A stretch of DNA of 64,000 bases from Rhodospirillaceae bacterium (lineage in GTDB: Bacteria > Pseudomonadota > Alphaproteobacteria > UBA6615). The stretch's first letter is position 1, and the number at the start of each line of letters is the position of its first letter. The stretch covers positions 1 to 64,000 of the forward strand of contig JABIVD010000035.1 of assembly GCA_018667335.1 (NCBI GenBank). The letters run 5' to 3'. This document shows positions 1,965 to 55,321 of the stretch, in pieces. The translations under genes were made by a program, and so were the position numbers. The notes under the pieces are model-generated. The model did not search any database and was not told where the DNA came from. It saw only the letters and a program-made list of their open reading frames with translations.

Positions 1965-2756
1965 CTAGAACAGGCCCTTCGTCATGCCACCGTCGACCGC
2001 CAACACTGTGCCGTTGACGTTGCCAGAGGCGTCGGAGGCCAGGAACGTCACGACGCGTGCGACTTCGTCCAGCTCGCCCAGGCGGCCGATCGGGATTTGC
2101 TGGCGAAACCCGTTCTCCAGCTCTTTCGGTGTTGTGTTGTTAACCTTCGCCATGTCGGCGAAGAGATCGAGGATCCGCTGGCTGCGCGTCGGGCCGGGAT
2201 CGACCGCATTCACGAAGATGCCGTCGCCGCCATAGATCTGCGACAGCCCCTTGTTGACCGCCATGAAGGCGGCGTTGACGGCGGAGGCAGGCAAGGCCTG
2301 TTTCGCGGGCTCGCGGCCGAACATGCCGATCAGATTGACGATGCGCCCATATTTGCGGGCCTGCATATGCGGGACAAGCGCGCGCGTGAGTTTCACGGCA
2401 CCCAGGAACTTCAGTTCGAACGCATCGCGCCAGACCTGGTCCTCGATGTCGTGGAACACGCCGCCGCGCGCTGCGCCGGCGGCATTCACCAGGATGTCGA
2501 TGTTCTCGAACTGACCCAAAGCCGCCTCGACGATTTTTTCGCCCGCGCCGTCGTCGGTGATGTCGAGCGCCAGCTGCCCGACCTCGACTCCGTATGCGGC
2601 TGAAATCTCATCCGCCGTGCTCTGCAGATCGTCGGCGTTGCGGGCGGTCAGGAAGACATTTGCACCCTCCGCGGCGAGCGCCATGGCCGAGGCCGCGCCC
2701 AGCCCCTTGTTGCCGCCCGAAATGATTGCCGTCTTGCCTTTGAGATTGAGATCCAT
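1965..2756 (-). CDS. SDR-family oxidoreductase with a degenerate catalytic motif
   Basis: A classical-size short-chain dehydrogenase (~263 residues). The cofactor motif is GGNKGLGAA, the central strand motif NAAG, and the C terminus VNGTVLAVDGGMTKGLF is typical of 3-oxoacyl-ACP-reductase-like SDRs. The usual catalytic Ser...Tyr-x-x-x-Lys is altered: the strand that normally carries Ser reads NLIGMFG, and the position four before the Lys is Met (MAVNK) instead of Tyr. It could be a non-canonical SDR, use another acid, or be a binding protein. Start chosen at 2756 (MDLNLKGKTAI) because GGGGCG lies at ribosome-site distance; 2771 is the alternative. Its 5' end faces the isomerase-like gene at 2918, so a divergent promoter lies between them. 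Confidence 0.87.
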   Translation of the reverse strand: MDLNLKGKTAIISGGNKGLGAASAMALAAEGANVFLTARNADDLQSTADEISAAYGVEVGQLALDITDDGAGEKIVEAALGQFENIDILVNAAGAARGGVFHDIEDQVWRDAFELKFLGAVKLTRALVPHMQARKYGRIVNLIGMFGREPAKQALPASAVNAAFMAVNKGLSQIYGGDGIFVNAVDPGPTRSQRILDLFADMAKVNNTTPKELENGFRQQIPIGRLGELDEVARVVTFLASDASGNVNGTVLAVDGGMTKGLF

Positions 2757-2917
2757 CGTCGCCCCGTTCATCCGATTGTTGTTCGATTATTGCGCGAGGG
2801 TCATAGCACCGCGGGCTGTCGGGCCGTGAGCAGTACGGCAGAACAAGCGTTTTGACCTCGGTCGGTGAAATCACGGACTTTATCTGCGGGGCGTGTCCAG
2901 CTTACGATCGGCGGGAC

Positions 2918-3721
2918 ATGATCAGCTTTGCCCCCAATTTCTATCATCTGTTCCTGGAGCTGCCGATCCGCGAGCGGTTTGCCGCCGCCGCCAAGATCGG
3001 CTGCACCGCCATCGAGTGGCATTTCCCCTATGAGCTGCCCAAGGACGAGCTGAAGGCGCTGCTCGACGATCACGGCCTGGAGTTCATGTATTGCGTGGTC
3101 CCGGCCGACTGGGACGCCGGCGTGCGGGGGCTGGGTGCGCAGCCCGGCAAGCAGGACGAGTTTCGCCGCGCGGCCGATCAGGCGCTCGAATACATCCAGC
3201 ATTGTGATTTCTACTCGATCAATGTGGGGGCAGGACCGGTCCCGGCCGGGGAGTCACGTGAGCGCTGCGTCGAGACCTATATCGAGAATCTCGACTACAT
3301 CGCCGCCGCGTCCGGCGACCATCGTTGCAAGTTTCTGCTGGAGCCGGTGACGGCGCGACGCATCCCGGATTGGGCGATGCAGACGATGGCTCAGGCGCGC
3401 GACATCGTGTCGGCGGTCGGCCGCGACAATGTGGGCCTCGTCTACGACACCTATCATATGCGTTACGAGGAGACCGGCACCCTGTCGGACATCATGGACG
3501 AGTACTGGCCGCTGATTGGTTACGTCCAGATCGGCAATCCGCCCGACCGGCACGAGCCGGGGGTGGGCGAACTCGATCTGCTGTGGCTGGCCCGCCGCGC
3601 CATCGAGAAGGGCTATCAGGCGGCCATCGGGATGGAGCTCGACCCCTCGATGGACACGTGGTCGAGCCTTCTCTGGATGAACGCGCTGGGCTATACCGTT
3701 GACCCTGACAACCGCCTCTAG
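2918..3721 (+). CDS. Hydroxypyruvate-isomerase-like TIM-barrel protein
   Basis: A xylose-isomerase-like TIM barrel (PF01261 type) of about 267 residues. Start at 2918 (MISFAPNFYHLF), since the open frame before it does not resemble the family. Features of the Hyi/sugar-epimerase group include the opening strand, RFAAAAKIGCTAIEWHFPY, FLLEPVTARRIPDW with the metal Glu of strand 5, VGLVYDTYHMRYEETG, and GYVQIGNPPDRHEPGVGELD in which His and Glu would complete the metal site. The likely reaction class is ketose/aldose or hydroxypyruvate/tartronate-semialdehyde isomerisation; the true substrate is unknown. It ends directly against the next ATG (TAG|ATG), so the two genes are likely co-transcribed. 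Confidence 0.85.
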   Translation: MISFAPNFYHLFLELPIRERFAAAAKIGCTAIEWHFPYELPKDELKALLDDHGLEFMYCVVPADWDAGVRGLGAQPGKQDEFRRAADQALEYIQHCDFYSINVGAGPVPAGESRERCVETYIENLDYIAAASGDHRCKFLLEPVTARRIPDWAMQTMAQARDIVSAVGRDNVGLVYDTYHMRYEETGTLSDIMDEYWPLIGYVQIGNPPDRHEPGVGELDLLWLARRAIEKGYQAAIGMELDPSMDTWSSLLWMNALGYTVDPDNRL

Positions 3722-4306
3722 ATGAACAGGAAAGACCGGCTCATGAAGACCCTCAAACTCGTGAAGGCCGTAGCACTGGCCGTCGGCATCTCGGCACTGA
3801 TCAGCGGCGGTGCCGCGGCCGAGCTGGCGAAGCCGACCGGGGCTGTGATCCTGACCATCGGCGGGGCGGTGAAATACAACAACCAGCCACCCTTCAATAA
3901 GTTCAACGACGCCTTCCTGCACACGCAAGAGTACAGTTTCGAGAAGGCAGCGGCCTTCGACAGGGCCATGCTCGAGAAGCTCGGCACCGTGACGACGACG
4001 ATCAAGGCCGAGCCCTGGCCGCGCGCGGTGACCCTGGAAGGCCCGCGCCTGATCGATGTGCTGATGGCGGCAGGCTGGACCGGCAGCAAGATCACGACGG
4101 TGTCGATGGACGGCTTCGCAGTCGAGATCACGGCGGCCGATCTGGCGGCCCGCGACTGGATTCTGGCCATCAAGTCCGATGGCGTACCTCTCGGCATCGG
4201 TGGACATGGCCCGGTCTGGATCGCCTATTCGGTGCCGGGCGGTACGGGAAGCGCCGAAGATGAATCCCGCTGGCCGTGGGCCGTATTCTACATCTCTGCC
4301 GAATAA
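3722..4306 (+). CDS. Secreted oxidoreductase molybdopterin-binding-fold protein
   Basis: A 194-residue protein with a signal peptide (LVKAVALAVGISALISGGAAAE). The mature part looks like the short stand-alone version of the sulfite-oxidase/YedY molybdopterin-binding domain: PTGAVILTIGGAV, FDRAMLEKLG, WPRAVTLEGPRLIDVLMAAGW, VSMDGFAVEITAADL, DWILAIKSDGVPL, GPVWIAYSV. No conserved cofactor Cys is visible, so it may not bind Moco. It begins immediately after the stop of the isomerase-like gene; an in-frame ATG at 3743 is an alternative start. It is the last gene before the hydrolase array. Role unknown, probably periplasmic. Confidence 0.75.
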   Translation: MNRKDRLMKTLKLVKAVALAVGISALISGGAAAELAKPTGAVILTIGGAVKYNNQPPFNKFNDAFLHTQEYSFEKAAAFDRAMLEKLGTVTTTIKAEPWPRAVTLEGPRLIDVLMAAGWTGSKITTVSMDGFAVEITAADLAARDWILAIKSDGVPLGIGGHGPVWIAYSVPGGTGSAEDESRWPWAVFYISAE

Positions 4307-4454
4307 GCGCCCTGTGCCGCACGCAATGTGCATATTCGTTGGAAACGGCCCCTTTCACTAAAAGACCGAATTCCACTATTGTGTAATCAACGATAATCGG
4401 ACCCGGCGGGTGCAATGCTCCCGGGTGCATAAATTTGCATTTTGGAGAGCGTCG
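4307..4454 (+). promoter_or_regulatory. Leader/promoter region of the five-hydrolase array
   Basis: About 150 nt without a gene, more AT-rich than its surroundings. It holds an inverted repeat ACCCGG (4401-4406) / CCGGGT (4421-4426), a TGCAT direct repeat (4426-4430 and 4436-4440), and the ribosome site TTGGAGAG before the ATG at 4455. I see no convincing -35/-10 pair. It is the only sizeable gap before the array and so the most likely site of its promoter. Confidence 0.4.
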
Positions 4455-6260
4455 ATGGCGAAGAAGAAAACACCGTATATGGATGATCAGTCACGGACCG
4501 ATGTGCGCGATGGCATGCGCATCGATTGGGATGTGCCCATCGAGATGGATGACGGCATCGTTCTGCGCTGCGACGTCTACCGGCCGATCAAGAGTGGCAA
4601 GTACGGCGTCATCATGACCTACGGGCCGTACGGCAAGCTTCTCCACTTCGAGGATGCCTATCACGACCAGTATGAACGGATGATCGAGGATTTCCCGGAA
4701 ATCGCGGCTGGCACCAGCGAGAAGTATCAGAACTGGGAGGTCGTCGACCCCGAACGCTGGGTCCCCGATAACTACGTGATCATTCGCGTGGATGGTCGCG
4801 GCACCGGCCGGTCCCCCGGCGTCATCGACATCTGGTCCCTGCGCGAAGCGCAGGATCTGGCCCTCTGCATCGACTGGGCTGGCGTCCAGTCCTGGTCCAA
4901 CGGGAAGGTCGGCCTGAACGGCATATCCTACTATGCCGAGAACCAGTGGCAGGCTGCAGCACTGCAGCCCAAGCATCTCGCGGCGATCTGCCCGTGGGAG
5001 GGTGCGGCTGATTTCTACCGCGACATGGCCCATCACGGCGGCATCATGTGCAACGGCTTCGTCAAGGATTGGTCGGAAGCCCAGGTCTACTCGGTCCAGC
5101 ACGGCAAGGGCTCGAACGGCCACCGCTCGCGCATGAACGCTGAATGGGTGGCCGGTCCGCCCACGATGACCGAGGAAGAGCTCGGCGCGAACCGGAACAA
5201 TTTCTACGAAGATTGCCTCGCCCGGAAACTCGATACCGATGAATATTGGCAGTCGCGCATGCCCGACTGGAACAAGGTCAAGGTGCCGATGCTGTCCACT
5301 GCCAACTGGGGCGGCCAGGGGCTGCATCCGCGCGGCAACTTCGAGGGATTTGTTCAGTCCGCCTCGAAGGAGAAGTATCTCGAGGTACACGGGATCGAGC
5401 ATTGGACCCATTTCTATACCGACTACGGCATGGACCTGCAGAAGCGCTTCTTCGGCTATTATCTGAAGGGCGAAAAGAACGGCTGGAACAAGCGGCCGAA
5501 GGTCCAGCTCCAGGTGCGTCACCCGGGCGAGAAGTTCGTTGAGCGTCACGAGAGTGAGTGGCCCCTCAAGCGGACCCAGTGGACGAAGTTCTACATCGAG
5601 CCTTCGGATATGAGCCTCTCGACCACGCCTCAGAAGAAAAAGGGTGCGGCGACCTATGGCGGCTTCTCCGATGGCCTGACTTTCATGACCGCGCCGCTGG
5701 AAGAGGATATGGAGATTACGGGGCCGATCGCCTCGAAGCTCTTCGTGTCGTCCGCGACGACGGATGCCGACATGTTCCTGGTCGTCCGTGTGTTCGGTCC
5801 CGACATGAAGGAAGTCACCTTCCAGGGTGCGCTCGATCCGCATACGCCGATCGCCCAGGGCTGGCTGCGTGCGTCTCATCGCAAACTCGACGCGAAGAAG
5901 AGCCTGCCGTATCGCCCGTATCACACCCATGACGAGGAACAGCCCCTCAATCCGGGCAAGGCCTACGAGCTCGATGTCGAGGTCTGGCCGACTTGCATTG
6001 TGGTGCCGAAGGGCCATCGCCTCGCGCTTTCTGTGCGGGGCCGGGATTATGTCTATCCGGGTGATTCCAACGTGCAGCTCGGCGAGTATGCCAACTGGAC
6101 AGGTTGCGCGATCTTCCGGCACGACGATCCGCGCGATCGGCCGGCCGAGATCTTCGGCGGCGATGTGACGCTGCACACCGGGCCAAAGGAACAGGCCCAC
6201 GTGATGCTGCCGATCATCCCGGCGAAGAAGCCGGTGCGAAAAGCTGCGAAGAAGAAATAG
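4455..6260 (+). CDS. CocE/NonD family (X-Pro dipeptidyl-peptidase S15-like) hydrolase, array copy 1
   Basis: A 601-residue serine hydrolase. Residues ~20-330 form the alpha/beta-hydrolase domain: WDVPIEMDDGIVLRCDVYRP at the start, oxyanion-strand RVDGRGTGRSPG near 111-122, the nucleophile elbow GISYY with Ser158, and the His region HGIEHW (His316). Residues ~350-595 form the C-terminal jelly-roll (LEEDMEITGPIASKLFVSS, EVTFQGALDPHTPIAQGWLRASHRK, VPKGHRLALSVRGRDYVYPG). In cocaine esterase the acid Asp sits in a WYD segment; the aligned segment here reads NWGG. Start 4455 has GGAG seven bases upstream. The Lys/Ala-rich tail (AKKPVRKAAKKK) is unusual. No signal peptide, so probably cytosolic. Substrate (ester, amide or peptide) unknown. 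Confidence 0.92.
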   Translation: MAKKKTPYMDDQSRTDVRDGMRIDWDVPIEMDDGIVLRCDVYRPIKSGKYGVIMTYGPYGKLLHFEDAYHDQYERMIEDFPEIAAGTSEKYQNWEVVDPERWVPDNYVIIRVDGRGTGRSPGVIDIWSLREAQDLALCIDWAGVQSWSNGKVGLNGISYYAENQWQAAALQPKHLAAICPWEGAADFYRDMAHHGGIMCNGFVKDWSEAQVYSVQHGKGSNGHRSRMNAEWVAGPPTMTEEELGANRNNFYEDCLARKLDTDEYWQSRMPDWNKVKVPMLSTANWGGQGLHPRGNFEGFVQSASKEKYLEVHGIEHWTHFYTDYGMDLQKRFFGYYLKGEKNGWNKRPKVQLQVRHPGEKFVERHESEWPLKRTQWTKFYIEPSDMSLSTTPQKKKGAATYGGFSDGLTFMTAPLEEDMEITGPIASKLFVSSATTDADMFLVVRVFGPDMKEVTFQGALDPHTPIAQGWLRASHRKLDAKKSLPYRPYHTHDEEQPLNPGKAYELDVEVWPTCIVVPKGHRLALSVRGRDYVYPGDSNVQLGEYANWTGCAIFRHDDPRDRPAEIFGGDVTLHTGPKEQAHVMLPIIPAKKPVRKAAKKK

Positions 6261-6270
6261 CAAACAATAA

Positions 6271-6298
6271 CGGGCGGTCCGGAGATACGGGCCGCCCG
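6271..6298 (+). other. Hairpin between hydrolase copies 1 and 2
   Basis: CGGGCGGTCC (6271-6280) pairs with GGGCCGCCCG (6289-6298), 10 bp with one G-U pair and an 8-nt loop. No T-run follows (GAAACGTTT), so it is more likely an mRNA processing or stability element, or an attenuating stem, than a standard terminator. Confidence 0.5.
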
Positions 6299-6310
6299 AA
6301 ACGTTTCCGA

Positions 6311-6380
6311 AGGGCGTATCAACGAAGAATGCCTGCATGGGCCCGCACAGAACGGGCCCGGCATAGGGGAGGAAATAACC
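6311..6380 (+). promoter_or_regulatory. 70-nt leader of copy 2 with conserved hairpin (first of two copies)
   Basis: This stretch is nearly the same as 8212-8281, which precedes array copy 3. It contains the stem GGGCCCG (6339-6345) / CGGGCCC (6353-6359) around the loop CACAGAA, ending shortly before the ribosome site GGGGAGGAA. In the second copy the loop is unchanged while the closing G-C pair has become T-A, which supports a real RNA structure. Confidence 0.6.
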
Positions 6381-8150
6381 GTGGACGACATCAAATATTC
6401 CGGTGATCCGTTGTTCAAAAGCGAGGTCCGCGAGGGCATGCGCGTCGACTGGGATGTGCCGATCGAGATGGATGACGGTCTCGTCCTGCGCGCCAATATC
6501 TATCGCCCGGACGATGATGGAACCTATCCTGTCGTCATGTCCCACGGCCCGTATGGCAAGGATCTCCACTTCGAGGAGATCTACCAAACCTGCTGGGATT
6601 TGATGTGCGAAAACCACCCGGACGTGCCGGCAGGGTCGACGAATATCCATCAAAGCTGGGAAGTCGCGGACCCCGAAAAATGGGTGCCGAAGGGCTTCGT
6701 CATCATTCGCGTGGATTCGCGGGGTGCGGGGCGCTCACCGGGTTATCTTGAACATTGGAGCCCGCGCGAGACGCAGGATTTTGCCGTGTGTATCGATTGG
6801 GCCGGCGTTCAGCCCTGGTCGAACGGCAAGGTCGGCCTGTCGGGTATTTCCTATTATGCGGTGAACCAGTGGCAGGTCGCGGCTTTGCAGCCCAAGCATC
6901 TGGCCGCAATCTGCCCCTGGGAAGGCTTCAACGATTTCTATCGTGAACTGGCCTACCAGGGCGGCATCTATAACTCCTTCGCGCGGCACTGGTACGACAT
7001 GCAAATCCTGAAGATTCAGCATGGATATGGCGATCGTGGCTGGGCGTCGCGCGCCAATGGAGAGCTCGCTGCCGGGCCGGTGACCCTTTCAAACGAGGAG
7101 CTCGCCGCCAACCGCTACGATCTCTACCAGGCGTATATTTCTCATCCGCTAGATAGCGACTGGTACCAGGCGCTGACGCCGGATCTGTCAAAGGTCGAGG
7201 TGCCGGTCCTCAGCTGCGCCAACTGGGGTGGCGCGCCACTGCATCCGCGCGGCAACTTCAATGGTTTCACGCAGGTGTCGTCGAAGCACAAATGGCTGGA
7301 GGTCCACGGCCTGGAACATTGGTCGCTCTACTACACCGACTATGGCAACGACCTGCAGATGCGGTTCTTCGAGCGCTTCCTGCGCGGTGATGAATCGGCA
7401 TGGCCCGACGATCCGCGCGTGCAGCTTCTCGTGCGCCACCCCGGTGAGAAATTCGTGCCGCGCAGCGAATCGGATTGGCCGATCCCGCGCACCGAATTGA
7501 CGAAATTCCATTTCGAGCCGGCCGGACAGGTCCTGTCTGAAAACCCGGCCAGCACGGCCGCCGAGGTGAGCTATGCGGCGATGGGTGACGGTGTAACCTT
7601 CCTGTCCAGCCCGGTGGAAGACGACCTCGAGATCTGCGGCCCGATGGCGGTAAAGCTCAATATCTCTTCCGACACGAAGGATGCCGACCTGTTCGTGATC
7701 CTGCGGGTATTCCAGTCGGACATGAAAGAGGTCACGTTCCGCGGCGCGCTCGATCCGCACACGCCGGTCGCGTCAGGCTGGCTGCGTGCGTCACACCGCA
7801 AGCTTGATCCGGAGCGCTCGACCGAGGCAGCGCCGTTTCACACCAATGACGAGGTGCAGGAACTCACGCCCGGCGAGGTCTACGAGGTCGATGTCGAGAT
7901 TCACGCGTCGGGCATCGTGGTGCCGAAGGGCTACCGTTTCGGCTTGTCGATCAAGGGTTGCGACTATGTCTACCCGGGCGAGACCAACGCGGGCCTGTCG
8001 AACATGAAGAATGTCTTCACGGGTGTCGGCCCGTTCCTGCACGATGACCCGGACAACCGTCCGGCGGAGGTCTTCGACAACAATGTTACGGTGCATCTCG
8101 GCGGCGAAAATGCCGGCTATGTGCTGTTGCCCGTCATTCCGGCCGAGTAG
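6381..8150 (+). CDS. CocE/NonD family hydrolase, array copy 2
   Basis: A 589-residue paralogue starting at GTG 6381 (VDDIKYSGDPLFKSEV), with GGGGAGGAA ideally placed upstream. It keeps the family landmarks: WDVPIEMDDGLVLRANIYRP, RVDSRGAGRSPG, the elbow GLSGISYYAVNQWQ, NWGGAPLHPRGN in place of the cocaine-esterase acid segment, HGLEHW, and the jelly-roll with EVTFRGALDPHTPVASGWLRASHRK and VPKGYRFGLSIKGCDYVYPG. By eye it is closest to copy 3: the shared KSEVREGMRVDWDVPIEMDDG, shared LEICGPMAVKLN-type segment, and shared leader. The pair therefore arose by a late duplication that included the intergenic leader. Unlike copies 1 and 4 it has no Lys-rich tail. Confidence 0.92.
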   Translation: MDDIKYSGDPLFKSEVREGMRVDWDVPIEMDDGLVLRANIYRPDDDGTYPVVMSHGPYGKDLHFEEIYQTCWDLMCENHPDVPAGSTNIHQSWEVADPEKWVPKGFVIIRVDSRGAGRSPGYLEHWSPRETQDFAVCIDWAGVQPWSNGKVGLSGISYYAVNQWQVAALQPKHLAAICPWEGFNDFYRELAYQGGIYNSFARHWYDMQILKIQHGYGDRGWASRANGELAAGPVTLSNEELAANRYDLYQAYISHPLDSDWYQALTPDLSKVEVPVLSCANWGGAPLHPRGNFNGFTQVSSKHKWLEVHGLEHWSLYYTDYGNDLQMRFFERFLRGDESAWPDDPRVQLLVRHPGEKFVPRSESDWPIPRTELTKFHFEPAGQVLSENPASTAAEVSYAAMGDGVTFLSSPVEDDLEICGPMAVKLNISSDTKDADLFVILRVFQSDMKEVTFRGALDPHTPVASGWLRASHRKLDPERSTEAAPFHTNDEVQELTPGEVYEVDVEIHASGIVVPKGYRFGLSIKGCDYVYPGETNAGLSNMKNVFTGVGPFLHDDPDNRPAEVFDNNVTVHLGGENAGYVLLPVIPAE

Positions 8151-8211
8151 GACGGCAAAAAAGTAGCCGAACGAGACGAACCGATGGCTCGAAGATAGGG
8201 GCCGTTCGAAA

Positions 8212-8281
8212 AGGGCGTATCAACGAATAAATGCCTGCATGGGCCCTCACAGAAAGGGTCCTGCAGAGGGGAGGAATGATC
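8212..8281 (+). promoter_or_regulatory. 70-nt leader of copy 3 with conserved hairpin (second copy)
   Basis: Homologous to 6311-6380. The stem is GGGCCCT (8241-8247) / AGGGTCC (8255-8261) with the same CACAGAA loop; it can be extended by CTGCA (8235-8239) with TGCAG (8262-8266). Compared with the first copy, the closing pair is T-A instead of G-C and an internal G-C is G-U. It ends just before GGGGAGGAATGATC and the start codon. Confidence 0.6.
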
Positions 8282-10051
8282 ATGGACGACATCAAACATA
8301 TCGACGATCCGCTGTTCAAAAGCGAGGTCCGCGAGGGCATGCGCGTCGATTGGGATGTGCCCATCGAGATGGACGACGGGGTCGTTCTACGCGCCAATGT
8401 GTATCGGCCCGACGATGACGGCCAGTACCCGGTGATCATGGCCCATGGACCCTATGGCAAGGATCTCCACTTCGAGGAAATCTACAAAACCTGCTGGGAT
8501 CTGATGTGCGAGAACCACCCGGACGTACCGGCGGGTTCGACCAACATTCATCAGGCCTGGGAAGTTGCGGACCCGGAGAAATGGGTGCCCCATGGCTATG
8601 TGCTTGTGCGGGTCGATTCCCGCGGTGCGGGCCGCTCGCCGGGCTATCTCGAGCATTTCAACGCGCGCGAGACCAAGGATTTCTACGATTGCATCGAATG
8701 GGGCGGCGTCCAGCCCTGGTCGAACGGCAAGGTGGGCCTGAGCGGCATCTCCTACTACGCGATCAACCAGTGGCAGGTGGCCGCGCTGCGCCCGCCGCAT
8801 CTGGCGGCGATCTGCCCGTGGGAAGGCTCGACGGACTATTACCGCGAAGGCAGCTACCACGGCGGCATCTACTCGACGTTCGCCAAGCACTGGTACGACA
8901 TGCAGATCAAGCAGCTGCAGCATGGCTACGGCGACCGAGGCTACCGTTCGCGCGCCAACGGCGAGTGGTCTGCCGGTCCGGACACACTGTCCGACGAGGA
9001 ATTGGAGGCAAACAAGTTCGACCTGCATGCCACCATGCGCGCCCACCCGCTCGACGACGAGTGGTTCGCGGACCGTGCCGTCGACTATTCCCAGATTGAA
9101 GTGCCGATCCTGAGTTGCGGCAACTGGGGCGGTGCACCGCTGCATCCGCGGGGTAACTTCCACGGCTATATGTTGTCGGGATCGAAGGATAAGTATCTCG
9201 AGGTCCATGGCCTCGAGCATTGGTCACTCTACTACACCGACTATGGCAACGACCTGCAGATGCGGTTCTTCGATTGCTATCTGAAGGGTGATGATTCCGG
9301 CTGGAAGGATCAGCCGCGTGTGTCCTTGAATGTGCGCCATCCGGGCGAGAAGTTCGTTCCGCGCGCCGAGGAGGACTGGCCGTTGCCGCGCACCCAGTGG
9401 ACGAAATTCCATTTCGAGCCAGTGGGGCAGATCCTGTCGGACGCTTCCGCCAGCGAGAGCGCCGCAATCACCTATCAGGCGATGGGCGACGGGCTCACTT
9501 TTCTGTCGAACCCGGCGGCCGAGGACACGGAAATCTGCGGGCCCATGGCGGTCAAGCTCAACGTGTCGTCGGACACGAAGGACGCGGACATGTTCGTCGT
9601 CCTGCGTGTGTTCCAGCCGGACATGAAGGAGGTCACGTTCCGCGGGGCGCTCGATCCGCACACGCCTGTCGCGTCGGGCTGGCTGCGGGCTTCGCACCGC
9701 AAGCTCGACCCGGCACGGTCGGAGGAGTGGGCGCCGTTCCACGCCCATGACGAGGTGCAGGAATTGACCCCGGGAGAAATCTACGAGCTCGACATCGAGA
9801 TTCACGGTTCGGGCATCGTGGTGCCGAAGGGTTATCGCTTCGGCCTGTCGATCCGGGGTTGCGACTATGTCTATCCCGGCGAGCCGAATGCCGGCCTGTC
9901 GAACATGAAGAACGTCTTTACGGGTGTCGGGCCGTTCCTGCATGACGACGAGACGGACCGGCCGCCCGAGGTGTTCGACAACAATGTGACGGTGCATCTG
10001 GGCGGCGATCACGCCGGCTACGTGCTGCTGCCGATCATCCCGGCAAAGTAG
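8282..10051 (+). CDS. CocE/NonD family hydrolase, array copy 3
   Basis: A 589-residue paralogue. Start 8282 (MDDIKHIDDPLFKSEV) follows GGGGAGGAATGATC; an in-frame ATG at 8231 lies inside the leader hairpin region and gives a non-conserved extension. Landmarks are WDVPIEMDDGVVLRANVYRP, RVDSRGAGRSPG, nucleophile elbow GLSGISYYAINQWQ, NWGGAPLHPRGN, HGLEHWSLYY, and C-terminal VPKGYRFGLSIRGCDYVYPG and FDNNVTVHLGGDHAGYVLLP. It is the near twin of copy 2, while the differences spread along the gene show the duplication is not recent. Its stop is followed after 8 nt by copy 4, so these two are certainly on one transcript. Confidence 0.92.
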   Translation: MDDIKHIDDPLFKSEVREGMRVDWDVPIEMDDGVVLRANVYRPDDDGQYPVIMAHGPYGKDLHFEEIYKTCWDLMCENHPDVPAGSTNIHQAWEVADPEKWVPHGYVLVRVDSRGAGRSPGYLEHFNARETKDFYDCIEWGGVQPWSNGKVGLSGISYYAINQWQVAALRPPHLAAICPWEGSTDYYREGSYHGGIYSTFAKHWYDMQIKQLQHGYGDRGYRSRANGEWSAGPDTLSDEELEANKFDLHATMRAHPLDDEWFADRAVDYSQIEVPILSCGNWGGAPLHPRGNFHGYMLSGSKDKYLEVHGLEHWSLYYTDYGNDLQMRFFDCYLKGDDSGWKDQPRVSLNVRHPGEKFVPRAEEDWPLPRTQWTKFHFEPVGQILSDASASESAAITYQAMGDGLTFLSNPAAEDTEICGPMAVKLNVSSDTKDADMFVVLRVFQPDMKEVTFRGALDPHTPVASGWLRASHRKLDPARSEEWAPFHAHDEVQELTPGEIYELDIEIHGSGIVVPKGYRFGLSIRGCDYVYPGEPNAGLSNMKNVFTGVGPFLHDDETDRPPEVFDNNVTVHLGGDHAGYVLLPIIPAK

Positions 10052-10059
10052 GGCGACAC

Positions 10060-11841
10060 ATGGCGGAGAACCTCTACGCCGATGATCCGCAGTTTCGCAC
10101 GGAAGTGCGGGACGGGATGCGGATCGATTGGGACGTGCCGATCGAAATGGACGACGGCAACGTCCTGCGGGCGGATATCTTCCGCCCGAACAAGCGTGGC
10201 CGGTTCCCCGTCATCATGAGCCACGGCCCCTATGCCAAGGGGTTGGCATTCCAGGAGGGCTACGAGACCGCCTGGAACATCATGGTCGAGACATTTCCCG
10301 AGGTGGCCCAGGGGACGACCAACAAATACGCCAACTGGGAGGTCGTGGACCCTGAGAAATGGGTGCCCGATGGCTATGTGGTCATCCGGGTCGATTCCCG
10401 GGGTTCCGGCCGCTCGCCCGGCGTCGTCGACGTGCGCTCGCCGCGCGAGACCCGCGACTTCGCGGCCTGCATCGACTGGGCCGGGGTGCAGCCCTGGTCG
10501 AACGGCAAGGTCGGGCTCAACGGCATTTCCTACTACGCGATCAATCAGTGGCATGTGGCGGCGCTGAAGCCCAAGCATCTGGCCGCGCTATGCGTCTGGG
10601 AGGGCGCGGGGGACTATTACCGGGACTCCAACTATCACGGCGGCATCCTGTCGACCTTCGTGACCAACTGGTACGACAAGCAGGTTGAATCCGTGCAGTA
10701 CGGGCTTGGCAAGAATGGCCCGCGTTCGGCGGTCCATGGCGACCTGGTCTGCGGCCCGGAGACATTCACGCGCGCCACCCTCAAGAAGAACCGCACCGAT
10801 CTGCCCCATGAGTTGCGCACGCGTAAGCTCGACGACGCATGGTATCGGGGTCGCTCGGCTGACTGGTCGAAGGTCGACGTGCCGGTCCTGTCGGCCGGCA
10901 ACTGGGGCGGGCAGGGGCTGCATCCACGCGGCAATATCGATGGCTTCGTCCATGCGGCATCCAAGCAAAAGTGGCTGGAGATGCATGGCCGTGAGCACTG
11001 GACCGAGTTTTACACGGACTACGGGCTCGACCTGCAGAAACGCTTCTTCGGGCATTTCCTGAAGGGCAAGGACACGGGCTGGAAGAAGCAGCCGAAAGTG
11101 TTGCTCAATGTCCGCCATCCCGATGAGGTCTTCGTGCCGCGGGCCGAGGGCGAGTGGCCGATCAAGAGCACGAAGTGGACCAAGGCCTATCTCGATCCGG
11201 CCAGTGGCGCGCTTGGTGCGCGCAAGCTCGACCGCAAACGCGCGATCACATATGCCGGCCTGGGCGACGGGCTGACCTTCCTGACCCCCGCGGCGGACAC
11301 GGCGATGGAAGTCACGGGGCCCCTGGCGGCCAAGCTGTTCGTGTCGTCCGAGACGAAAGACGCGGATCTGTTCCTGGTGGTGCGGTTGTTCTCGCCCGAC
11401 CTGAAAGAAGTCACCTTCAAGGGAGCCCTCGATCCGCACACGCCGATCGCGCAAGGCTGGCTGCGGGCGTCGCACCGCAAGCTCGATCGGAAGAAATCAC
11501 GCAAACATCAGCCCTATCACAGCCACGACGAGAAGCAGCCGCTCAAGCCGGGCCAGGTCTATGAGCTCGACGTTGAAGTCTGGCCGACATCGATCGTCGT
11601 GCCGGCCGGGTATCGGCTGGGGCTGACGGTCCGGGGGCGGGACTATGTCTATCCCGGCGGATCGGGCGGGCGATTGTCGAACATGAAGAACGAATTCACC
11701 GGTGTTGGACCCTTCGTCCATGACGGCCGGGACGCGCGGGTCTATGGCGGCAACGTTACGATCCATTGTGGACCGAACCATCCGTCGCATCTGTTGTTGC
11801 CGGTCATCCCGCCGAAGCGCGCGGGCAAGAAACGCAAATAG
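10060..11841 (+). CDS. CocE/NonD family hydrolase, array copy 4
   Basis: A 593-residue paralogue starting at ATG 10060, only 8 nt after copy 3, with a weak AGGGCG ribosome site. This suggests translation partly coupled to copy 3. It carries WDVPIEMDDGNVLRADIFRP, RVDSRGSGRSPG, nucleophile elbow GLNGISYYAINQWH, NWGGQGLHPRGN, HGREHWTEFY, and the jelly-roll ending VPAGYRLGLTVRGRDYVYPG and NVTIHCGPNHPSHLLLP. The GLNGISYY and NWGGQGLHPRGN wording and the basic tail (KRAGKKRK) place it nearer to copy 1 than to the copy 2/3 pair. The array thus contains at least two subgroups. Substrate unknown. Confidence 0.92.
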   Translation: MAENLYADDPQFRTEVRDGMRIDWDVPIEMDDGNVLRADIFRPNKRGRFPVIMSHGPYAKGLAFQEGYETAWNIMVETFPEVAQGTTNKYANWEVVDPEKWVPDGYVVIRVDSRGSGRSPGVVDVRSPRETRDFAACIDWAGVQPWSNGKVGLNGISYYAINQWHVAALKPKHLAALCVWEGAGDYYRDSNYHGGILSTFVTNWYDKQVESVQYGLGKNGPRSAVHGDLVCGPETFTRATLKKNRTDLPHELRTRKLDDAWYRGRSADWSKVDVPVLSAGNWGGQGLHPRGNIDGFVHAASKQKWLEMHGREHWTEFYTDYGLDLQKRFFGHFLKGKDTGWKKQPKVLLNVRHPDEVFVPRAEGEWPIKSTKWTKAYLDPASGALGARKLDRKRAITYAGLGDGLTFLTPAADTAMEVTGPLAAKLFVSSETKDADLFLVVRLFSPDLKEVTFKGALDPHTPIAQGWLRASHRKLDRKKSRKHQPYHSHDEKQPLKPGQVYELDVEVWPTSIVVPAGYRLGLTVRGRDYVYPGGSGGRLSNMKNEFTGVGPFVHDGRDARVYGGNVTIHCGPNHPSHLLLPVIPPKRAGKKRK

Positions 11842-11863
11842 TTCAAAATTGGGGGACGCAGTG

Positions 11864-13633
11864 ATGAGCAGTATCCAGACACCCGGCGATAGCCAGATGA
11901 CGTCGAAGGTCAATGACGGGATGCGCATCGATTGGGATGTGCCGCTTGAGATGGACGACGGGATCGTCCTGCGCGCCGATATCTACCGACCCGACGATGA
12001 CGGCCAGTATCCGGTGATCATCAGCTACGGCCCCTATGCCAAGTGGCTCGCCTGGGAAGACGGCTATCCCTACCAGTGGAAGCAGATGGTTGAGGATTAC
12101 CCCGACTGTCTCGTCGGCTCATCGAACCGGTATCAAAACTGGGAGCTCGTGGATCCCGAGAAATGGGTGCCGGACGGCTACATCTGCATGCGGGTGGATT
12201 CGCGCGGTGCGGGCCGGTCCCAGGGCTTTCTCGACGTCTGGTCGGCGCGCGAAGCCCAGGACTTCCACGACTGCATCAACTGGGCGGGCACCCAGGCCTG
12301 GTCGAACGGCAAGGTCGGGACCTCGGGGATTTCCTATTACGGCATGAACCAGTGGCAGGTCGCCTCCCTCCAGCCCAAGCATCTGGCCGCGATGTGCGTC
12401 TGGGAAGGCGCTGCGGATTACTATCGCGACATGGGACATCACGGCGGCATCGCCTGTCGGTTCCCGTCGATCTGGTTCAACTCCGCCGTCGTCCCGCGCC
12501 AGCATGGCAAGGGTGCCTATGGCAAGAAGAGCCGCCTCAATGGCGAGTGGATTTCGGGGCCCGAGACGCTGTCGGAGGAAGAGCTGGCGGACAATCGCAC
12601 CGACTATGGCCGCGATATTCTGGCTCATCCCCTGGTCGATGATTACTGGAAGGCCCGGATGCCGGACTATTCCAAGATCAACGTGCCGTTGCTGTCATCG
12701 GGTAACTGGGGCGGTGTGGGCCTGCATCCACGCGGCAACACCGAGGGCTATGTGAATGCCGCGAGCGATCAGAAGTGGCTCGAGATCCATGGCCTTGAGC
12801 ATTTTACCCACTACTACACCGACTACGGCATCGACTTGCAGCGCCGCTTCCTCGGCCACTTCCTGAAGGGCGAGGATACAGGCTGGGGTGAGCAGCCGAA
12901 GGTGCAGCTGTTGATCCGGCATCCCGACGAGGTGTTCGTCGAGCGGGCCGAGGATGCATGGCCGATCCCGCGTACCGAATGGACCGAGATGTATCTCGAT
13001 CCCGCGGGTAAGACGCTCTCTGATGCGCCGATGGCTGATGCCCAGAGCTTCACCTATGAGGCGATGGGGGACGGAGCGACGTTCCTGGCGCCGCCCGTGG
13101 CGCAGGAGACCGAGATTACCGGGCCTGTTGCTGCCAAGCTGTTCATCTCTTCGGAGACCGAGGACGCCGATCTGTTCCTGGTGCTGCGGGTGTTCAAGCC
13201 GGACATGAAGGAGGTCGTCTACAAGGGTGCCAACGACCCCCACACGCCCGTCGGGCTCGGCTGGCTGCGCGCCTCGCACCGCAAGCTCGACCCCGACCAG
13301 ACCTTGCCTTACCGGCCGTATCACGCCCATGACGAAGTGCAGCCACTCACGCCGGGTGAGATCTACGAGCTCGATATCGAGATCTGGCCGACGTCGATCG
13401 TGTTGCCGGAGGGCTATCGACTGGGCCTCAGCGTGCGCGGCCGCGACTATGTCTATCCGGGCTGGACGCCGGGCGACCCGATGATCGCCAACCGCGTCCA
13501 GTATGGCGTCGGGCCGTTCAAGCACGAGATGCCGTCCAACCGGCCGCTCGACGTCTACGGCAAGAAGGTCACCCTGCACACCGGGCCTGACCACCCGTCC
13601 CATGTGCTGCTGCCGGTCATCCCGGAGAAGTAG
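11864..13633 (+). CDS. CocE/NonD family hydrolase, array copy 5
   Basis: A 589-residue paralogue starting at ATG 11864 (MSSIQTPGDSQMTSKV), or possibly GTG 11861, with GGGGGACG upstream. The longer open frame from 11702 overlaps copy 4 and is not needed. Landmarks are WDVPLEMDDGIVLRADIYRP, RVDSRGAGRSQG, elbow GTSGISYYGMNQWQ, NWGGVGLHPRGN, HGLEHFTHYY, and C-terminal LPEGYRLGLSVRGRDYVYPG. It is the most divergent copy: IEM becomes LEM, and EVTF[R/K]GALDPHTP becomes EVVYKGANDPHTP. It ends 6 nt from the convergent hmgA stop, leaving no room for a separate terminator. Confidence 0.92.
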   Translation: MSSIQTPGDSQMTSKVNDGMRIDWDVPLEMDDGIVLRADIYRPDDDGQYPVIISYGPYAKWLAWEDGYPYQWKQMVEDYPDCLVGSSNRYQNWELVDPEKWVPDGYICMRVDSRGAGRSQGFLDVWSAREAQDFHDCINWAGTQAWSNGKVGTSGISYYGMNQWQVASLQPKHLAAMCVWEGAADYYRDMGHHGGIACRFPSIWFNSAVVPRQHGKGAYGKKSRLNGEWISGPETLSEEELADNRTDYGRDILAHPLVDDYWKARMPDYSKINVPLLSSGNWGGVGLHPRGNTEGYVNAASDQKWLEIHGLEHFTHYYTDYGIDLQRRFLGHFLKGEDTGWGEQPKVQLLIRHPDEVFVERAEDAWPIPRTEWTEMYLDPAGKTLSDAPMADAQSFTYEAMGDGATFLAPPVAQETEITGPVAAKLFISSETEDADLFLVLRVFKPDMKEVVYKGANDPHTPVGLGWLRASHRKLDPDQTLPYRPYHAHDEVQPLTPGEIYELDIEIWPTSIVLPEGYRLGLSVRGRDYVYPGWTPGDPMIANRVQYGVGPFKHEMPSNRPLDVYGKKVTLHTGPDHPSHVLLPVIPEK

Positions 13634-13639
13634 GCGGGT

Positions 13640-14956
13640 TTAGCGCCGGGCGGGGTCGAAACGGTCTTCGAGGCCGGCCCAGCAATCCTGGTAGTCGGCC
13701 TGGCGCAGCGGCGTCTCCAGCGCGAACGGCGTGGGGCGCAGCACGTAGCGGGTCTCGAGCATGAAGGCGAGGGTCCCGTCGATCTTCTCGGGCACGAGTT
13801 TGGCGTTGCTGGCCGCCTCGAAGGTGGCGGCGTCGGGGCCGTGTCCGGCCATACAGTTGTGCAGGCTCGCACCGCCCGGCGTGAAGCCTTCGGCCTTGGC
13901 GTCGTAAGCGCCCTCGACGAGGCCCATGAACTCGTTCATCACGTTGCGGTGGAACCAGGGCGGCCGGAACGTGTGTTCGGCGACCATCCAGCGCGGCGGG
14001 AAGATCGCGAAGTCCACATTCGCGGTGCCTGGGTCGGGCGAGGGCGAGGTCAGCACGGTAAAGATCGACGGGTCGGGGTGGTCGACGCTCACCGTGCCGA
14101 TCGTCATGAAGTTTGCCATGTCATATTTGTAGGGCACATGGGTGCCGTGCCATGCCACCACATCGAGCGGGGAGCGGTCGACCCCCGTGGTCCACAATCC
14201 GCCGTCGAACTTGAACACGAGCTCGAATGCGCCCGTGCGATCCTCGAATCCGGCGTTGGGTGTCAGGAAATCACGCGGGCTGGCCAGGCCGTTGGTGCCG
14301 ATCGGGCCCAGTTCGGGCAGGCGCAGCGGGAGCCCGTAATTCTCGCAGACGTAACCGCGCGACGCGCCGTCCGGGAGTTCGGCCCGGAACTTGATGCCCC
14401 GCGGTACGACCGCGATCTCACCAGGTGCGGCGTCGAGTATGCCGAGCTCCGTGTGCAGGACGAGCCGACCTTGTTGCGGCACGAACAGCATCTCGCCATC
14501 GGCGTTGTGGAAAAACCGCTCGGTCATCGACCGGTTGGCCGCATACAGGTGAATGCCGATGCCCGTTTGGTGATGCGCGTCGCCGCACATGGCATAGGTG
14601 GTCATGCCGTCGATCAGGTCTGTCGGGGCGTCGGGAAAATTTAACGGGTTCCAGCGCATCTGGTTGGGCGGCGCGGATGTGTCTCCTGCCGATGGCGTGC
14701 GCCAGCCGCTGTTCGCGAGGCGCGCGTAGGGCGGCGCCTTGGCCGTCGGGCGGATGCGATAGCACCAGGTCTGCCGCGATTCTTCGCGTGGCACCGTGAA
14801 CGCCGACCCGCTCATTCCCTCGGCATAGAGCCCGTAGGGCGCTTTCTGAGGGGAATTCTGCCCCTGAGGTAGGGCGCCCGGCAGGGCCTCGCTCGAGAAA
14901 TGGTTCCCGAGGCCGCTCTGGTAGCCCGCGTCCGTCTTCGTCGTCGCACCGTCCAT
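13640..14956 (-). CDS. hmgA: Homogentisate 1,2-dioxygenase
   Basis: A 438-residue non-haem iron dioxygenase that opens the ring of homogentisate to maleylacetoacetate in tyrosine/phenylalanine breakdown. The N terminus [20 protein letters not shown] and [18 protein letters not shown] are hallmark family sequences. The iron ligands lie in the [18 protein letters not shown] segment (His and Glu), with a third His in [14 protein letters not shown]. Start 14956 has AAAAGGACAT at the right distance; an ATG at 14983 lacks one. The usual partners (fumarylacetoacetase, maleylacetoacetate isomerase, 4-hydroxyphenylpyruvate dioxygenase) are not in the window. A palindrome lies 31 bp upstream of the start. 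High confidence. Confidence 0.98.
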
Positions 14957-14986
14957 GGAAATGTCCTTTTGATGGTGCGTCAATAA

Positions 14987-49322: not shown

Positions 49323-50270
49323 CTAGACCTCTGATGCGCCGTAATATAGCGAGGCGGCGTGCCGTGCTTCGGCGAAGAACAGCCAGCGCTCGATTAGAAT
49401 TCCTGTGGCCGCACCAAACAGCGCGACGATCGAGGCGATCGTGGCGTAGGGCGCCGGCAGGACGCCTGCGACGACCAGGGCCAGGGCGGTTGCGATGCCG
49501 CCGAGAATGAGGGCGATCTTGCGCAGGCGCGCGGCATGCTTGCGTGCGATTGTGTAGCCCATCTCGCGCATCACGTAGTTCTCGCTGCTGTGCGGTGATT
49601 CCAGCAGGCGAACCTTTCCGATGTCCCCGAGGCCCGTCGCCGATTCAGCCGTCGCGACCGGCTTTGCGTTATCAATCTGCCGCCAATAGACGATTTTGAG
49701 CATCCAGGCCGCGAGCGTGATCACCGCCGCACACCAGGCAAGAACGCCAGGCGTCACCCAGAACACCGATGCAATCGCGATCAGAAGGACAGCGCCCGTG
49801 GACAAGGCAAAGGCGATATAGAGCGGCACGACCAGCGGGGTCGACCAACGGGGGATGGCGCGCAGGCTGGCATATATCATTCCCGTGCAACCCACCGTCA
49901 CGAGGCATAGACCCGCGGCGATGAGCCCGAACCATATCCAGATGTTGTTATAGGCGCCGAAGAACAGGGATCCCACGGCGAAGACCATGATCGGTATGTA
50001 GGTCGCCAGCGCGGCGACACCTTCGCGCGAAAGCCAGGAAGAGCGCCATTGGCTCAACGCCCGCCAGGCCCGTTCCGGGTGGCCGAGATGGAAGGTCGAT
50101 GAGAGCAGGCCCGCGGTGATCAGGGCGAGGGACACGATAAACACCGACGCACCGAGTGCGGGGGTCAGCGGCACGATACCGAGCAATGCGAGCACCACGA
50201 GCCATACGACGGCGCCGTAACCCGCACCGGTGGCGGTTGTGAAGAAAATGACGGAATAGGCGGGGTTCAT
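49323..50270 (-). CDS. soeC: DmsC/NrfD-like membrane anchor subunit, probable SoeC
   Basis: A 315-residue integral membrane protein with about eight hydrophobic helices, beginning MNPAYSVIFFTTATGAGYGAVVWLVVLALL and carrying FHLGHPERAWRALSQWRSSWLSREGV, the DmsC hallmark loop. DmsC-type anchors bind quinone and pass electrons between the iron-sulfur subunit and the quinone pool. It stands after soeA and soeB in the order A-B-C, with a 29-nt gap from soeB. The cassette therefore forms a complete quinone-linked molybdoenzyme facing the cytoplasm. Confidence 0.9.
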   Translation of the reverse strand: MNPAYSVIFFTTATGAGYGAVVWLVVLALLGIVPLTPALGASVFIVSLALITAGLLSSTFHLGHPERAWRALSQWRSSWLSREGVAALATYIPIMVFAVGSLFFGAYNNIWIWFGLIAAGLCLVTVGCTGMIYASLRAIPRWSTPLVVPLYIAFALSTGAVLLIAIASVFWVTPGVLAWCAAVITLAAWMLKIVYWRQIDNAKPVATAESATGLGDIGKVRLLESPHSSENYVMREMGYTIARKHAARLRKIALILGGIATALALVVAGVLPAPYATIASIVALFGAATGILIERWLFFAEARHAASLYYGASEV

Positions 50271-50299
50271 TGAGCTCTGGGATTTCGGGGTTGATCAGT

Positions 50300-51049
50300 T
50301 CAGCGGGAGAGCATGCGGTCGACCCAATTGAGGAAGTCGCTGCCGGTGTCGGTTGACGCTGGGATGGTTTCAGGAGCTGGTGCCGGCGGGTCGAGATCGT
50401 GGCGGGTCGACGCGCGCGGCGGCAGGTATTTGTTCACCGGCTGCATGCCCATTTCGGGCATCAAATCATATCCGCCACGTTCCTCGACGAGCCGGCTGAC
50501 TTCAGAGTTGGGGTCGCCAAGATCGCCGAAATGGCGGGCGGAAGCCGGGCAAGTGGAAACACATGCGGGCAGTCGGTCTTCGGGCGGCAGGTTCTGGTTT
50601 TCGATCCGGTCGATGCACATGGTGCATTTCTTCATCACCCCGTCGGCATAGTCATATTCGCGCGCGCCATAGGGGCAGGCCCATGAACAGAGCTTGCAGC
50701 CGATGCAGGTGTCGGCGTTGACCAGGACGATGCCGTCGCTCTCGCGCTTGTAGGATGCGCCGGTGGGACACACGGTCACGCAGGCCGGTTCATCGCAATG
50801 CAGGCAGCTGCGCGGGAAGTGAACCGTTCGTCCGGTGGCCCCATCGCCGGCCTCGAAGCTGTGCACCCGGTTAAACCAGACACCATCCGGGTCGGCGCCG
50901 TAGGGATTTTCATCGGTCAGGGGCGCGGAGTGTCCGCCCGTGTTCCATTCCTTGCAGTTCACGGCACAGGCGTGGCAGCCGACGCAAATGTCGAGATCGA
51001 TCACCAGGCCGAGCTTGCGCCCGTCAGTGGACGTCGGAAGACTGGTCAT
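50300..51049 (-). CDS. soeB: Four-cluster ferredoxin subunit, probable SoeB
   Basis: A 249-residue iron-sulfur protein with four cysteine groups of the DmsB/NrfC type: CVGCHACAVNC, CLHCDEPACVTVC, CIGCKLCSWAC and CTMC with a downstream ACVSTCP. It carries electrons from the molybdopterin subunit to the membrane anchor. No Tat signal, consistent with a cytoplasmic complex. Its start overlaps the soeA stop (ATGA), so the two are translationally coupled. The C-terminal tail past LPPRASTRHDL is Pro-rich and probably unstructured. Confidence 0.92.
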   Translation of the reverse strand: MTSLPTSTDGRKLGLVIDLDICVGCHACAVNCKEWNTGGHSAPLTDENPYGADPDGVWFNRVHSFEAGDGATGRTVHFPRSCLHCDEPACVTVCPTGASYKRESDGIVLVNADTCIGCKLCSWACPYGAREYDYADGVMKKCTMCIDRIENQNLPPEDRLPACVSTCPASARHFGDLGDPNSEVSRLVEERGGYDLMPEMGMQPVNKYLPPRASTRHDLDPPAPAPETIPASTDTGSDFLNWVDRMLSR

Positions 51050-53994: not shown

Positions 53995-54005
53995 CAGCTA
54001 AATAC

Positions 54006-54530
54006 TCAGACCAGGGTGTCGATTTGCTCGTCGGTCAGCCCGCCGGGGATGATAGTGACGGGGATACGAAGCTGGCCAATCGCCTTCTTCGTGAGATGAT
54101 TGATCAAGGGACCAGGACCGCGCCGGCCAGTCGAGGCCGCGAGCACGAGAATGCGGATATCCTTGTCCTCCTGAACCAGTTCGACCACGGCGGATTTGGT
54201 TTCGCCCTCGCGCAGATACAGAATGGGCATGCCACCATACAAGCGGGTGACTTCCGCGGCATGTTCCTGCAGCAATTGCTCGGCTTCCTCGCGCGCTTCG
54301 AACTGCATCAAATTCCCGACCGCCGCCCAGTGCTGAAAATCCGATTCACGAATGACCCGGACGAGGCCTACACGTCCGCCGGTGCGCCGCGCGCGCAGAC
54401 TGGCCCAGCGCAGGGCGACCCGCATTTCCGGTGAATTGTCGACCACCACGAGAAAAATTGCAGCCCGCTCTCCGGTGGACCTGTCGCTTTCCTGCGGGCG
54501 GTTGATGGGGGTCGAATCGGACATGACCAT
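54006..54530 (-). CDS. Universal stress protein (UspA-like)
   Basis: A 174-residue USP-fold protein. Visible: AIFLVVVDNSPEMRVALRWASLRARRTGGRVGLVRVI at the first strand and helix, ILVLAASTGRRGPGPLINHLTKKAIGQLRIPVTIIPG at the nucleotide-loop region. The usual G-x2-G-x9-G-S ATP loop is altered here (STGRRGPGPLINHL), so ATP binding is uncertain. It starts at 54530, overlapping the Alph_Pro_TM stop by one base (TGATG), and lies 11 nt before soeA. It could be a regulatory or chaperone-like companion of the sulfur operon. Confidence 0.85.
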   Translation of the reverse strand: MVMSDSTPINRPQESDRSTGERAAIFLVVVDNSPEMRVALRWASLRARRTGGRVGLVRVIRESDFQHWAAVGNLMQFEAREEAEQLLQEHAAEVTRLYGGMPILYLREGETKSAVVELVQEDKDIRILVLAASTGRRGPGPLINHLTKKAIGQLRIPVTIIPGGLTDEQIDTLV

Positions 54531-55321
54531 CAGACCTTACGGAACACGAAGCCGGCGAACCAGCCGGCAATCAGTGCGATGATGACGGCGATCATGCCGT
54601 ACAGGGGCGCCTGTTCGAATGCGAACTCGGTCACCTTCGCCTCGAATCCGACCTTGCGGACTTGGAGCAGGGATTCCGATTTGCCCGAAATCTCTCCCCC
54701 CCGCACCTGATACACCGTCACTTGATAGTCCCCGGTGGGAACGTTCGCAGGCAGCGCGACCCGGCTGCGGAACAGTCGGTTGCCGCGAAATTCGACGTCC
54801 TGGAGGCCGTCGGTATAAAGGCGGCTGCGTTGTTTGTTGCGGATCAACGCCGAGCGGAACGCTTCTTCCTGGTCCAGTGATGTCAGGAAGTGCGGGTTGA
54901 ACGCGATATGCTCCGTGCCTATCTGGTTGGCGTTGAGGACCGGCAACGGCAGAAGGTCTTCGAGCGGCGCGGACGCGGCGACATGATAAAAGCCGGGTGC
55001 ATCGTCGAAGATCAAATCAGACGCATTCACCCAGATACCCGCCACGCGTTCCTTGCGCCGGACGATCACCTGGCTGCTCGGCGCGCGCACCACCACGATG
55101 ACATCGCCTTCGCCGTCCGTCGCGCCGAACAACAACACGTCTGCCCCCTTGAAGCCGGTGCTGATGCCGATCAGATCCTGGCTGAGATCGATCGCGAGCG
55201 CGTCGTCGTGTGCGGCGTCGGCCGGGATTTGCAACAACACCAAAGCAGCGGCCACGGCGAGCACCGCGCGCACGTTACCAAACAGACGCAGAGAGCCGAA
55301 CATGGGTTGCGGGTTGCTCAT
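54530..55321 (-). CDS. Alph_Pro_TM (TIGR02186-type) membrane protein
   Basis: A 263-residue protein with an N-terminal signal or anchor (AVLAVAAALVLLQIPADAA), a periplasmic beta-rich body (LSQDLIGISTGFKGADVLLFGATDGEGDVIVVVRAPSSQVIVRRKERVAGIWVN) and one C-terminal membrane helix (LYGMIAVIIALIAGWFAGFVFRK). The opening matches the Alph_Pro_TM family (PF09608/TIGR02186), restricted largely to Alphaproteobacteria and usually next to a TauE/SafE permease, as here. Its exact role is unknown; the co-location suggests an accessory of sulfite export. It overlaps tauE by 4 nt at the start and the stress-protein gene at the end. Confidence 0.9.
   Translation of the reverse strand: MSNPQPMFGSLRLFGNVRAVLAVAAALVLLQIPADAAHDDALAIDLSQDLIGISTGFKGADVLLFGATDGEGDVIVVVRAPSSQVIVRRKERVAGIWVNASDLIFDDAPGFYHVAASAPLEDLLPLPVLNANQIGTEHIAFNPHFLTSLDQEEAFRSALIRNKQRSRLYTDGLQDVEFRGNRLFRSRVALPANVPTGDYQVTVYQVRGGEISGKSESLLQVRKVGFEAKVTEFAFEQAPLYGMIAVIIALIAGWFAGFVFRKV

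Follow-up and report, generated by a model that had tools for sequence, protein, structure and literature searches.

The cocaine esterase CocE of Rhodococcus (structures 1ju3 and 3i2k) uses Y44, S117 and H287, and its catalytic Asp259 follows from the listing of F261 as the residue at acid+2 (PMC7034887). The same three-domain architecture was found in the products of five tandem genes, here called c1 to c5, at positions 4455-13633 of a 64,000-nucleotide stretch of DNA from a Rhodospirillaceae bacterium (contig JABIVD010000035.1, hereafter the window); the c1 model matched CocE across both domains, with a Z score of about 31 and 27% identity. CocE Tyr44, Ser117 and His287 had their counterparts in Tyr59, Ser158 and His316 (c1 numbering), but the Asp that follows strand beta7 in CocE was Gly287 here, and Glu182, after strand beta6, was new with respect to CocE. 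Assignment of the five genes as cocaine esterases proper was rejected, as the Ser117-Asp259-His287 triad was broken at the Asp position. We consider it probable, though well short of certain, that the five genes form an operon-like group of anciently separated paralogues, all from one subfamily of cytosolic serine hydrolases and each with its own function, acting on a related imported ester or amide.

The closest solved structure was SACOL2612, a CocE/NonD hydrolase of Staphylococcus aureus (3ib3, 3iii; VIA Z 44, 520 residues, root-mean-square deviation 1.8, 34% identity), which shares with c1-c5 the serine, the Glu of a PWEG motif and a beta7 turn lacking Asp, but has Glu where c1-c5 have His316; a literature search for its function found none described. 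The alpha-amino acid ester hydrolases (1mpx, 2b9v) have the same fold (Z about 26) at about 21% identity. PepX, the S15 X-Pro dipeptidyl-peptidase, resembles the array products in its Pfam domains (Peptidase_S15 and PepX_C); identity with PepX was rejected, the best NCBIfam model (NF003780) giving 56-76 bits against a cut-off of 642. In the haloalkane dehalogenase LinB (1MJ5), E132 is the catalytic acid. LinB-type enzymes have this Glu (E132 in 1MJ5; PMC7034887) where strand beta6 ends, as proposed below for Glu182, but belong to another family, have an Asp nucleophile and no jelly-roll domain, and offer a parallel rather than kinship. In Shinella, a CocE/NonD hydrolase was strongly expressed and did not account for acesulfame hydrolysis (PMC11500405).

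Layout, age and distribution of the array

The five open reading frames (ORFs) were complete, lay head to tail on the forward strand and had 589-601 codons each: c1 (4455-6260, 601 aa), c2 (6381-8150, 589 aa, with a GTG start), c3 (8282-10051, 589 aa, with an alternative start at 8279 or 8276), c4 (10060-11841, 593 aa) and c5 (11864-13633, 589 aa), separated, in this order, by about 120, 125-131, 8 and 22 bp. All five copies matched Pfam Peptidase_S15 and PepX_C over both domains, well above gathering scores, and gave 228-251 bits with the NCBIfam CocE/NonD model TIGR00976 (curated cut-off 66.3). An earlier, sequence-only reading had described five full-length, same-strand paralogues, none of them visibly broken, and had named a series of motifs; the intact ORFs and the domain matches agree with this description, and the motifs were found in 5 of 5 copies. 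The N-termini had no evident signal peptide, so the products are probably cytosolic. Two further members of the subfamily were encoded in the same genome, on contigs C16 and C5.

Pairwise protein identity among the copies was 57-63%, with the exception of c2 and c3 (78%), which had already been read as close. The other groupings proposed at that stage were not retained: c1 and c4 were 63% identical, slightly above the remaining pairs of the 57-63% range, but a maximum-likelihood (ML) tree placed c1 beside c5 (94/90) with c4 outside, and c5, taken for the outlier, was not special.

The tree comprised 57 proteins, whose loci came from one genome-wide scan plus relatives. The copies sorted into four subgroups (c1, c2/c3, c4 and c5), each of them also present in other genera or phyla. 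Subgroups c2/c3 and c5 each formed a 100/100 clade that also held genes scattered over other genera or phyla; the c1 clade, supported by at least 91/82 at each step, took in genes of several phyla; and c4 formed its own 100/100 clade within the two genera that carry the array, the wider c4 group not being resolved. The approximately unbiased (AU) test rejected a single clade for the array genes from both genera (p 2e-61), and recent tandem amplification was ruled out by the tree and this test together. Moreover, lone genes from genera g2 and g7 of the family joined c3 in a clade that left out c2 (100/99), so the c2/c3 duplication predates the genus splits. Other genera of the family had lone orthologues, each at a locus of its own, of c1 (74-76% identity), c3 (75-88%) and c5 (73-81%), and only more distant relatives of c4 (about 65%). 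Because the orthologues of the copies stand alone in other genera and the c2/c3 duplication is older, the array was not produced by amplification within the genus, and it is an assembly of old paralogues, which may have arisen either by gathering of lone genes or by break-up of an older array elsewhere; in both cases, members of the pre-existing subgroups would have been brought or kept together. Every copy was under purifying selection with respect to its orthologues (ratio of nonsynonymous to synonymous substitution rates, dN/dS, 0.02-0.13, with silent sites partly saturated), which fits the idea that each copy is kept as a gene with its own role. The reading of the array as a kept set of different enzymes is supported, and recent identical duplicates are excluded. 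The sequence-only reading would also have been refuted if most relatives had scattered single copies and the array were an isolated amplification. This holds only by half: scattered single copies do occur in sister genera, but as orthologues of individual array members, and the array is common to two genera.

All 7 genomes of the genus carried members of the subfamily, as did 14 of 17 from the remainder of the family, but only 4 of 380 genomes sampled from the class outside it (E <= 1e-150). The order c1-(c2)-c3-c4-c5 was present in all seven genomes of the genus (g1), some arrays being cut by contig ends; c2, missing from several arrays of the two genera, was absent from those of G003 and G006. 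In the second genus (g6) the array was whole or partial in 4 of 6 genomes: G011 had c1-c3-c4-c5, G022 had c1-c2-c5, and G017 and G020 had partial arrays; no array was found in the other two genomes, both incomplete. Ordered pairs recurred more widely. Same-strand adjacent c1-c2/3 pairs were found at 13 loci (Hyphomicrobiales, MarineAlpha3, TMED23-type Rhodospirillaceae and less well named metagenome-assembled genomes, MAGs) and c1-c4 pairs at five (Nitrospinota and MAGs), and c5-c5 pairs were found in Nitrospinota. Since these loci were the best matches to the array alignment, with c1 as the confirming sequence, the counts apply to the surroundings of c1 and should not be taken for an unbiased survey; the neighbouring genes were called with a simple codon-score script, which may have missed neighbours or set wrong starts. 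The earlier statement that no system of this form had been described is softened by these same-subgroup pairs in Hyphomicrobiales, marine Alphaproteobacteria and Nitrospinota, although a literature search for CocE/NonD arrays returned nothing.

Some of the loci had peculiarities of their own. At L064 (7722-9447) the c2/3-type partner of c1 was in two pieces (334 and 226 aa), by frameshift or assembly error. Two contigs binned as Nitrospinae or another MAG (L055 and L056) carried a c1 83% identical to that of the window, by misbinning or recent transfer. Two near-identical c1-type copies with the same neighbours (L137 and L138, on contigs C10 and C3 of G019) reflect a recent segment duplication or an assembly artefact.

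Catalytic residues and variation between the copies

The predicted catalytic residues and the beta7 turn were nearly invariant among 148 aligned sequences: Ser158 in 148, His316 in 147, Glu182 in 147 and Gly at position 287 in 146, a Gly-Gly standing in place of the cocaine-esterase Asp after beta7. Ser158, His316, Glu182 and Gly287 were invariant in a 44-sequence alignment (A2), and His291 was also nearly invariant. In the AlphaFold2 model of c1 (predicted local distance difference test score 90.7), strand 175-181 lay directly before Glu182, strand 279-284 before the Gly-Gly and strand 307-312 before His316; Ser158 was at the nucleophile elbow and His316 shortly past the end of beta8. Tyr59, kept in all copies, corresponds to the oxyanion Tyr44 of CocE; residues were matched to CocE by eye in the alignment, the CocE residues being taken from PMC7034887. 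An acidic residue at the end of beta6 instead of at the beta7 turn is a known active alternative in the alpha/beta-hydrolase fold (group B, PMC7034887), and this is what was found in c1, with Glu182 after strand 175-181 and the Gly-Gly, in which no acid is present, after 279-284. Because the beta7 Asp is lost, Glu182 is near-invariant after beta6 and the arrangement is known in the fold, Glu182 is predicted as the catalytic acid, probably moved from beta7 to beta6. A classical relative included in the same alignment run (L050) had WxDG at the beta7 turn; this CocE-type gene lies at 11586-13085 on the minus strand, in a contig of G003, where some 1.6 kb separate it from the array upstream.

The products would accordingly be read as enzymes of the S15/CocE fold, with an alpha/beta-hydrolase core, a helical cap and a jelly-roll domain, in which Ser158, held by His316, would be the nucleophile acting on an ester or amide bond, Tyr59 would belong to the oxyanion hole and Glu182, at the end of beta6, would be the acid replacing the Asp after beta7 of cocaine esterase.

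Variation between the copies was concentrated elsewhere. Mean identity among the five copies was 44% in the cap (187-270) vs. 68% in the core. Of the 40 top-ranked positions distinguishing the subgroups, 17 were in the cap (p 1e-4 to 5e-6) and 10 in the loop 536-562 (p about 3e-6 to 3e-5), a loop chosen after the ranking was seen; subgroup-specific residues had been expected in the catalytic loops, and only one of the 40 was there. These positions fit different substrates or partners for the different subgroups. Identical chemistry behind unlike caps would let the copies accept different but related acyl compounds, which would be imported by the cell and then passed to oxidative catabolism.

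Several observations weigh against this interpretation. The ranking of the subgroup-distinguishing positions used the very sequences from which the subgroups were defined, and the cap and the loop 536-562 are also the fastest-evolving parts of the proteins, so relaxed constraint may account for part of the enrichment. Nor is there certainty about the catalytic machinery, since SACOL2612 has Glu at the position of His316; a 30% relative in G019 (L135, 3114-4727) has Asp for Glu182, lacks His312 and His316 and is possibly inactive or catalytically different. A literature search found no activity reported for any member of the c1-c5 subfamily. Finally, no single neighbouring gene was common to all loci, the neighbours varying by lineage, so one common substrate is not supported; nor is the breakdown of a repeated substrate suggested in the sequence-only reading.

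Neighbouring genes and alternative explanations

Upstream of the array, in both genera, was a gene for a xylose-isomerase-like TIM-barrel (triosephosphate isomerase barrel) protein (2918-3721, forward strand, Pfam PF01261), which is probably the first gene of the array operon. Its product was nearest to hydroxypyruvate and 2-oxo-tetronate isomerases (NCBIfam TIGR03234, 211 bits, below the cut-off of 353). Between this gene and c1, a small protein with an apparent signal sequence was encoded (3722-4306, forward strand), with a homologue in the same place in G003, G005, G006 and G011; judged by its sequence it is probably exported, and no Pfam or NCBIfam match was found for it. A homogentisate 1,2-dioxygenase gene (13640-14983, reverse strand, Pfam HgmA_N and HgmA_C) converges on the array after a 6 bp gap and adjoins it in most relatives.

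A hairpin was present at the c1-c2 junction (6272-6297, forward strand; GGGCGGTCCG-GAGATA-CGGGCCGCCC) with no T run after it. It was kept in 9 genomes of the two genera, with 95.6% of pair cells paired and some two-sided changes, its core had its sole exact match in the genome here, and it is possibly an mRNA stability or processing element. In front of c2 and c3, the two leaders (6313-6384 and 8214-8285) had in common the 15-base GGGCGTATCAACGAA and, immediately ahead of the Shine-Dalgarno region, a GGGCCC hairpin, a trace of shared origin or of later exchange. No Rfam family reached its gathering score in 2600-14000, the 6272-6297 hairpin included, a scan for sigma-70-type promoters found none, and terminator-like sites were no more frequent than expected by chance. 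Elsewhere in the window, part of a phage-type integrase (3-473; Arm-DNA-bind_3 and Phage_int_M) was found not far from the array, a possible sign of an island edge. For the region 49326-56244, the translated ORF starts alone suggest a molybdenum oxidoreductase that has iron-sulfur and membrane subunits, with genes resembling rhodanese and TusA after it.

At other loci, the genes beside members of the subfamily include importers and catabolic oxidoreductases, which points to uptake and breakdown and favours the preferred explanation. The neighbouring genes also bear on a more specific form of it, in which the copies would free aromatic acids conjugated to sugars or cyclitols, each copy acting on one conjugate. 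We consider it unlikely as it stands. It is consistent with the isomerase-like gene heading the array operon and the homogentisate dioxygenase beside it, with HpaB and intradiol dioxygenase genes near c1 in some other loci, with a MalK-type ATP-binding cassette (ABC) importer before c1-c2/3 in Hyphomicrobiales, and with inositol-dehydrogenase-like GFO/IDH/MocA genes no more than two genes from c1 in 12 of 61 loci, from several phyla, such a gene being next to c1 in Betaproteobacteria, Rokubacteria and Actinomycetota. These links are positional only, however, the specific (equivalog) family matches were below curated cut-offs, and, besides the lack of a shared neighbour, the lone loci of sister genera were in other contexts (Asp/Glu racemase, cyclase, luciferase-like and class II aldolase genes).

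Some or all of the copies might no longer be hydrolases, the loss of the beta7 Asp marking binding proteins or acyltransferases. The canonical Asp is missing across the whole subfamily, in the solved relative 3ib3 the residue aligned with His316 is not His either, and the sequence is compatible with acyl transfer instead of hydrolysis; but the near-invariance of Ser158, His316, Tyr59 and Glu182 extends across phyla, and an acid after beta6 is an active arrangement in this fold (PMC7034887), which makes this explanation quite improbable. Equally improbable is that the copies are unlike subunits, members of different subgroups forming mixed dimers or higher complexes and being adjacent in a fixed order for this reason. 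Adjacent pairs do mostly join different subgroups in a fixed order (c1-c2/3 and c1-c4) in several lineages, a solved cocaine esterase (3puh) is titled as the biologically active dimer, and the loop 536-562 is rich in positions distinguishing the subgroups. Against this, subgroups are found intact and alone at distant loci in sister genera, the c5-c5 pairs of Nitrospinota are of one broad subgroup, and every copy has the full set of catalytic residues. That all copies have one function, and that the array persists because more enzyme is needed, fits its single orientation, short gaps and identical catalytic core, but is very unlikely, because an array kept for dosage should be young, with copies much alike, and here the subgroup split predates the family and each copy is under strong purifying selection.

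The preferred explanation, a set of old and functionally separate hydrolases, can be extended to a widespread branch of S15/CocE enzymes, with the acid moved from beta7 to beta6 and several cap lines, of which an ordered set would let marine and soil bacteria degrade a related group of natural acyl conjugates as an undescribed catabolic system; this extension is tentative and, on balance, rather doubtful. The family is annotated only as CocE/NonD hydrolase, and comprises several old, separately kept lines that recur in fixed order beside importers and catabolic genes. Their recurrence beside such genes is a concrete route to finding the substrates and, if true, the shift of the acid would provide a clear example of a triad relocated inside a single family.

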